From NCBI GenBank assembly GCA_016196825.1, contig JACPWY010000024.1, positions 1-64,000 of the forward strand: a stretch of 64,000 nt of DNA, read 5' to 3'. A model generated the notes under the pieces. That model saw only the letters and a program-made list of their open reading frames with translations. It was not told the origin of the DNA and ran no database searches. Of this stretch, positions 617-1,285 are shown piece by piece. Numbering within the stretch: position 1 is the first letter of the stretch; each line of letters starts with the position of its first letter. A program made the position numbers and the translations under genes. This stretch comes from Deltaproteobacteria bacterium. Its GTDB lineage: Bacteria; Bdellovibrionota; FAC87; UBA2466.

Positions 617-666
617 GGGTGAGGTACCACCAGGGTGAGGTACCATACCACCAGGGTGAGGTACCA
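617..666. repeat. Three direct copies of GGGTGAGGTACCA
   Basis: The 13-mer GGGTGAGGTACCA occurs at 617-629, 633-645 and 654-666, spaced 16 and 21 bases apart. An inverted partial copy (TGGTACCTCAC) lies at 693-703. Each copy contains the self-palindromic GGTACC. The array fills the gap between the VOC gene and the lipoprotein gene. Confidence 0.85.
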
Positions 667-703
667 AGTTACTTTTCGGCCGAAAAGTAACTTGGTACCT
701 CAC
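656..703. terminator. Perfect 48-bp palindrome, possible terminator
   Basis: Bases 656-679 are the exact reverse complement of 680-703, a 24+24 palindrome with no loop bases, centred on CGGCCG. It lies 21 bases past the end of the minus-strand lipoprotein gene, where a terminator would be expected. There is no clear T-run outside the stem, although the stem itself carries TTTT. The sub-sequence GTTACTTTTCG recurs in the hairpin at 14610-14634. As DNA it could also extrude as a cruciform. Confidence 0.5.
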
Positions 704-724: not shown

Positions 725-1285
725 TCAATGGGCAGGGACAGGTGTCGGACTCGGATGAATCGCCGAGAGGAACGTCGCTATGAATGACTGGATCACAGGC
801 ACCAGGCTGATGATTGCCGAGATGATCGGGGCAAACTGGGGCGCCACGAACATCAGCACCGGCAGAATCAGGTTCGCCACGCTCAAGATCTTGCTGAGCA
901 CGGAACTGGCTGAACTGGGGCTACCGCCACTGGCGTTGACCATGCCATTGGCTAATGCCGGCACCGTCGTGGCACCGCCTTGGATCTGGCCGAGCAACGT
1001 GGTGAGGCCCGAGAGATCGAGCGACGCCTTGGCGTGACCGTTCAGACTGCCCTGGTTTTCTTGGATGATGCGAATCAGCTCTTCAGCTGAAAGATCGCTC
1101 TTGTCACCGGTGACAGCGGTCCCACCCTCTTCCATTGGCATCGCAGCGAGATTTTTCATCGCATCGTTGGCCGACATCGGCGCGACACCCCCGGACTGGG
1201 TAGCCTGTGACGAGAGATTCATACGGCCGCAGCTGCTCACGATAAAGGCAACAGCGACTAAGGTCGCAAGTATAGGTTTCCTCAT
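725..1285 (-). CDS. Predicted lipoprotein of unknown function
   Basis: This 186-residue protein begins with a lipoprotein signal: MRKPILATLVAVAFIVSSC, with the lipobox SSC placing Cys19 as the lipidated residue. A strong ribosome site (GAGGAG) sits about 8 bases before ATG 1285. The middle is rich in Ala, Gly, Ser and Thr. Near residues 135-175 there is a hydrophobic stretch (VANLILPVLMFVAPQFAPII followed by more aliphatic residues) that could be an amphipathic or membrane helix pair. No family was recognised. It is a single gene; its upstream 160 bases (1286-1445) hold no gene and no promoter I would defend. Confidence 0.8.
   Translation of the reverse strand: MRKPILATLVAVAFIVSSCGRMNLSSQATQSGGVAPMSANDAMKNLAAMPMEEGGTAVTGDKSDLSAEELIRIIQENQGSLNGHAKASLDLSGLTTLLGQIQGGATTVPALANGMVNASGGSPSSASSVLSKILSVANLILPVLMFVAPQFAPIISAIISLVPVIQSFIATFLSAIHPSPTPVPAH

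Follow-up and report, generated by a model that had tools for sequence, protein, structure and literature searches.

A perfect 48-bp palindrome in a genome of the Bdellovibrionota as a probable symmetric member of the RAYT/TIR-type dispersed repeats

A perfect palindrome that directly follows a short array of direct repeats raises the question of whether it was born where it now stands or came from elsewhere. In the window (the whole stretch of 64,000 nucleotides analysed here), sequence reading and a repeat search place such a palindrome at 656..703, with two 24-bp arms (656-679 and 680-703) that are 100% complementary and have no loop between them. The longest other loop-free arm in the 64-kb window measures 9 bp, and the longest ones in 20 shuffles of the window range from 7 to 11. 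The palindrome encloses a 42-bp unit (AGGTACC...GGTACCT, 659..700) whose inner 40 bp (660-699) form a symmetric repeat composed of an outer half, a core and an inverted outer half; this core, the self-complementary 16-bp sequence CTTTTCGGCCGAAAAG (672..687), is common to the symmetric and asymmetric units discussed below. Ahead of the palindrome, on the plus strand, three direct copies of GGGTGAGGTACCA (617..629, 633..645 and 654..666) follow one another at spacings of 16 and 21, each copy joining local flank to the foot of the hairpin (GGGTGA followed by GGTACCA), and the last 7 nt of the third lie inside the 40-bp hairpin unit. A 21-bp unit, TACCACCAGGGTGAGGTACCA, is common to two of the three copies, and an inverted partial copy, TGGTACCTCAC, sits in the right arm of the palindrome. 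The first-pass annotation, which described three unevenly spaced copies leading into a loop-free 24+24 palindrome that includes the third copy and an inverted partial one, was thus exact in its description. The array as a whole (617..658, plus strand) consists of tandem local flank plus GGTACCA with CCA/TACCA fillers, the repeats having been computed and the junctions, which end at ACCA, assigned by eye. The hexamer GGTACC occurs 15 times in the window, about 11-19 being expected, and is not unusual; close direct repeats (at least 11 bp, within 40 bp) form just two further clusters in the window, and GGGTGAGGTACCA is unique to this locus, where all three of its matches in the 3.54-Mb genome are found.

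The rest of the genome bears directly on the question. The exact 28-bp centre of the palindrome has been found at six genome loci, and forms with two mismatches at two more, the control giving 0 matches. Contigs 4, 26, 62, 63 (the contig of the window), 73 and 74 carry the 40-mer GGTACCAAGTTACTTTTCGGCCGAAAAGTAACTTGGTACC without any difference, while the contig 43 form carries matching changes on both arms and the contig 24 form has two arm mismatches. The flanks of the identical 40-mers are mostly unlike one another, and the copies are mostly intergenic, many of them just past stop codons. Of 59 genomes, own genome included, three contain the exact 16-bp core (this genome, G003 and G011), and variants of the palindrome are present in two other genera. 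The first-pass annotation had seen in the locus a snapshot of palindrome birth; this part of its reading falls, given that the inner 40 bp are identical at six loci and that variants occur in two other genera. Because the same 40 bp stand at other loci, the palindrome was not born at the window locus, and as far as sequence comparison goes it appears to have arrived there, or pre-existed, as a dispersed repeat. An empty site was sought by means of the neighbouring glyoxalase gene, which had a match in eight relatives, and no locus with the neighbouring genes or a palindrome was found among them; gene order is not conserved, which defeated the comparison. Two other identities were rejected: a phage or plasmid element, there being no match to the palindrome in collections of plasmids, phages and viral contigs, and a described RNA family, since the window has 0 Rfam matches. 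When named genomes were scanned with GGTACCNANNTNCTTTTCGGCCG, a single match came up; it had no palindromic partner and was judged to be due to chance.

Related units border transposase genes in the same genome. Matches to PF01797 lie at five places, of which that on contig 64 is over the cut-off and corresponds to a RAYT-type (REP-associated tyrosine) Y1 HUH transposase gene (L053 1235-1951, minus strand) placed between two inverted copies of TAGGTACCAATCTACTTTTNGGCCGAA (46.1 bits, with a shuffle maximum of 20.3). The ends of this gene are asymmetric, each comprising an outer half, a palindromic core and a different inner half with GGTAGC or similar; the window unit pairs one outer half with a second, inverted one. 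The core and most of the outer half of this unit agree with the contig 64 ends, with small changes (AAGTTAC in the window, AATCTAC on contig 64), whereas its inner arm differs from the ends of that gene. A second RAYT, on contig 12, has ends built in the same way, with TAGGCCTA as their core, and the NCBIfam model REP_Tyr_transpos is the best match for both RAYTs (61.6 bits, below the cut-off of 80). In an alignment of 13 frames, picked for having no stops, the HxH motif and one tyrosine, Y128, which we take to be the catalytic tyrosine of the RAYT family, are invariant in all 13. Of RAYTs, 41 matches were listed, and the inverted-end test covered 18 of the 30 RAYT loci L070-L099, these 18 being from this and related genomes; at 16 of these 18 the inverted ends scored above the best of 30 shuffles. 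Neither a solved structure matching the RAYT by sequence nor a transposase whose ends carry the exact AAGTTAC outer half of the window was found; units with the core are present in G003 and G011, yet the RAYTs examined there have other ends. Perfect palindromic REPs have been described as recognised by group 3 RAYTs (PMC8266576). The palindrome is probably a non-coding dispersed palindromic repeat of the RAYT/TIR type; such repeats are already known, and the window palindrome is a new member, of which the symmetric variant is the informative part.

Symmetric and asymmetric units form two separate groups. When 22 units with CGGCCG or AGGCCT cores were scored for complementary positions out of 20, 11 had 18-20 and 11 had 12-15, with none between, and the window unit scored 20 of 20. 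On contig 13 the window outer half is combined with an asymmetric inner half of the GGTAGC type, and this unit is, to judge by its sequence, a plausible ancestor of the symmetric form; on contig 66 a symmetric derivative of the contig 12 RAYT ends is found, and in G011 a different perfect palindrome lies directly past a stop codon. In G003, contig C87 holds an intact inverted dimer predicted to fold as a single long hairpin (-72.5 kcal/mol), whereas the genome of the window yielded none that belongs to the subfamily of the window unit. Other end families behave similarly, as seen when 14 genomes of the bacterial family were searched with two patterns taken from the RAYT ends of relatives. The pattern with the AAGCTT core matched 75 times, in 5 of the 14 genomes, and that with the AATATT core 48 times, in 4 of the 14. 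Symmetric units numbered 4 in the first family and 9 in the second; convergent pairs numbered 3, spaced 65 bp apart, and 8, spaced 54-113 bp apart, respectively. In G011 C54 (L112 1501-1590), a perfect palindrome that follows a stop codon directly adjoins a unit with an AAGCTT core, which belongs to a different family of RAYT ends.

How the symmetric form might have arisen can be proposed as follows. The transposase, or a lost close relative of it, would have moved units as single-stranded hairpins, and the symmetric form would result from the joining of two inverted ends at their self-complementary core. In an inverted dimer the two cores are direct repeats, and a deletion between them would leave an outer half, a core and an inverted outer half; the unit so formed would then have spread through the genome. 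The collapse of a dimer as the origin of symmetry seems to us somewhat short of an even chance. More broadly, we think that a joining of ends at the core common to them, or else template switching, produced the symmetric unit, which then spread; spread is the simpler reading, since the symmetric form is present in six identical copies and one asymmetric copy has that outer half. A bolder and tentative proposal is that the 40-bp unit is a collapsed REPIN that has kept both transposase-recognised ends and is itself mobile, a collapse that took place in several unrelated end families of this bacterial family and gave perfect hairpins that drive local slippage arrays at the foot. If so, few transposable units would be smaller.

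The strongest alternative, nearest to the idea of the first-pass annotation, is quasi-palindrome correction, according to which scattered asymmetric RAYT-end units were each perfected in place: the nascent strand would snap back on the core, copy the outer half together with some flank bases, and switch back. This template-switch mechanism is established in E. coli (PMC7202029), and several features of the copies agree with it. The flank is mirrored beyond GGTACC by 4, 6, 11, 4 and 7 nt at the window and on contigs 74, 62, 26 and 4, respectively (over the eight loci, 4, 2, 6, 11, 4, 7, 0 and 1 nt), a total of mirroring reached by 300 of the 40320 left/right pairings of the flanks, and the arms on contig 43 carry matching changes. 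The same flanks, however, are in part common to different loci (contigs 62 and 73, up to 14 nt; contigs 26, 74 and 43; contigs 4 and 24), and borders of AAAA/TTTT recur in G011, in other genera and in other end families, which makes part of the mirroring an element border. Taken together, the sharing of flanks across loci and the recurrent borders render the evidence from mirroring weaker than it appears: mirrored flanks fit template switching better than dimer collapse, and shared flanks weaken that preference. The arms speak against correction as well, since the joining of two ends is expected to give unequal arms whereas template switching would leave them equal, and of the 13 symmetric units of the AAGCTT and AATATT families, 9 have outer arms with 1-4 bases of difference between them. 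Later mutation can explain some of these nine units, as both arms are found elsewhere in the same genome in only three, one arm in five and neither in one. Finally, correction in place must account for six identical symmetric copies next to the single asymmetric copy with the same outer half. Correction thus stands as a possible but doubtful origin; a search of the literature found no paper joining repetitive extragenic palindromes with template switching.

The array ahead of the palindrome has counterparts at other copies. On the foot side, 6 of 21 units have direct repeats of at least 11 bp within 30 bp, a condition seen in 0.1% of 5000 random 52-mers drawn from the window and the loci; the count covers 21 of the 22 units, with C2b left out as a tandem copy of C2a. 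The six are the window unit and those on contigs 4, 24, 64 (right end), 66 and 73, the repeats lying on both sides on contigs 4 and 24. By eye, these repeats span locus-specific flank into the first few stem bases, and those at the window, on contig 73 and on the left of contig 24 share the endpoint GGTACCA. With a threshold of at least 10 bp, foot repeats accompany 5 of 11 symmetric and 1 of 10 asymmetric units (p = 0.09, suggestive only); a threshold of 8 gives p = 0.006, but the repeats so counted need not include the foot. The foot repeats at 6 of 21 units suggest replication slippage at the hairpin, and the GGTACC array would then be a later event, in which the copying strand stalls a few bases into the stem and re-pairs upstream, thereby repeating local flank and foot. 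Alternatively, the foot repeats may end at GGTACCA through cleavage by the transposase at that point. The template switching put forward in the first-pass annotation survives in part, in that slippage or template switching at a hairpin fits the array, with foot repeats at other copies and mirrored flanks at 5 of 8 loci; element borders common to several loci explain a portion of the mirroring. Arrays of flank plus foot constitute a natural record of what looks like slippage at short hairpins.

The position of the palindrome with respect to genes must also be considered. It lies between two minus-strand open reading frames, just 3' of one that encodes 186 aa with no Pfam match (725..1285, minus strand), whose stop codon is 21 nt away; on the other side, about 90 nt away, starts a 160-aa frame of the glyoxalase family (PF00903; 85..567, minus strand). 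The 186-aa frame (725-1285, minus) begins with what looks by eye like a lipoprotein signal (IVSSCG). As RNA, the 48 nt of the palindrome are predicted to form a 22-bp stem of -35.9 kcal/mol. In the cell, transcripts of the 186-aa gene would bear a stable hairpin at their 3' end, and an effect of the predicted hairpin on that end is possible. A family of bidirectional intrinsic terminators held under selection, and unrelated to transposition, would account for this predicted stability, for the mostly intergenic copies, many of them just past stop codons, and for the AAAA/TTTT borders of some copies. The window copy, on the other hand, has no U tract beside 656-703 on either strand, and neither identical 40-mers at unrelated loci nor matching units on either side of a transposase gene are expected of convergent terminators, which makes this explanation improbable. 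Less probable still is a site for a dimeric DNA-binding protein, such as an operator or a nucleoid site, whose identity is held by selection: perfect symmetry and an identical sequence at six loci would suit it, but the units often lie 3' of genes, their flanks bear slippage repeats, and related units border transposase genes. Twenty bases per arm are, moreover, far above those of usual operators. An assembly artefact, which the nearness of the locus to the start of contig C63 (about 650 bases) might suggest, is barely credible, the palindrome being also inside five other contigs, with similar ones in other genomes, and its 48 bp being shorter than a read.

Instability gives no cause for surprise either. 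The first-pass annotation considered loop-free palindromes of this size unstable in most bacteria, a weak claim in view of E. coli, in which, as reported, recombination-proficient cells tolerate a 246-bp interrupted palindrome and a perfect palindrome of 460 bp is lethal when SbcCD is present (PMC4245961); 48 bp is far below both sizes, and surprise on this account is ruled out because it is far short of the palindromes described there as harmful.

Reading the palindrome as a RAYT/TIR-type repeat connects an odd sequence with transposase-linked repeats of a known class; several described systems resemble it. The closest likeness is to TIRtrons and their TIRYT genes (Di Nocera et al., 2013, PMC3733652), as described, in which a Y1 gene lies between partly self-complementary inverted repeats, related solo and dimeric copies are dispersed, and a GGGGWSAS-like motif is present, here GGGGACAG at C2 and GGGGTCAG in the AATATT family; the present repeats differ in having a perfectly symmetric subfamily, a low copy number and tandem repeats of flank plus foot. 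In REPtrons (Nunvar et al., 2010, PMC2817692), a RAYT gene is likewise reported between inverted palindromes with related extragenic ones elsewhere. Classical REPs usually number over 100 per genome, whereas about 15 units of the present layout are listed for this genome. In contrast to GTAG-tagged REPs, the foot of the window unit is GTGAGGTACC, with no GTAG tag; in asymmetric units GTAG is found mainly in the inner half. Another example is that of REPINs (Bertels and Rainey, 2011, PMC3116915), which, as outlined there, are matched by the hairpin-forming inverted end dimers of relatives, such as that of G003 C87, and REPIN-like spacings of 54-113 bp occur in G002, G007 and G011; the window unit is, however, a single symmetric unit and not a dimer with spacer. 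The quasi-palindrome mutations described in E. coli (PMC7202029) are similar in that imperfect inverted repeats are perfected and flank bases mirrored, although here the same perfect palindrome is dispersed and was not made once. One bacterial family holds all three forms together: single asymmetric ends, dimers in inverted orientation and perfectly symmetric units. These coexisting forms make the origin and spread of perfect palindromes testable by comparison of strains.

Some minor observations concern single loci. Beyond the unit, C62 (L020) and C73 (L018) share a 14-nt flank, TGAGGAAGTCCGTA, as if the flank had travelled with the unit. At C2:79874-79986 of the same genome (L028), an asymmetric unit preceded by GGGGACA is tandem-duplicated with its spacer as a 73-bp repeat. 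Finally, the window holds a larger hairpin at 1441-1652, which has 47-nt arms that are 79% complementary and 118 nt apart and encloses a perfect stem of 12 bp at 1540-1567; the end of one of its arms, GAGCTGAGGGAT, resembles GAAGCTGAGGGATGAG, which stands immediately left of the C73 unit, and this likeness suggests a putative second family of dispersed hairpins.
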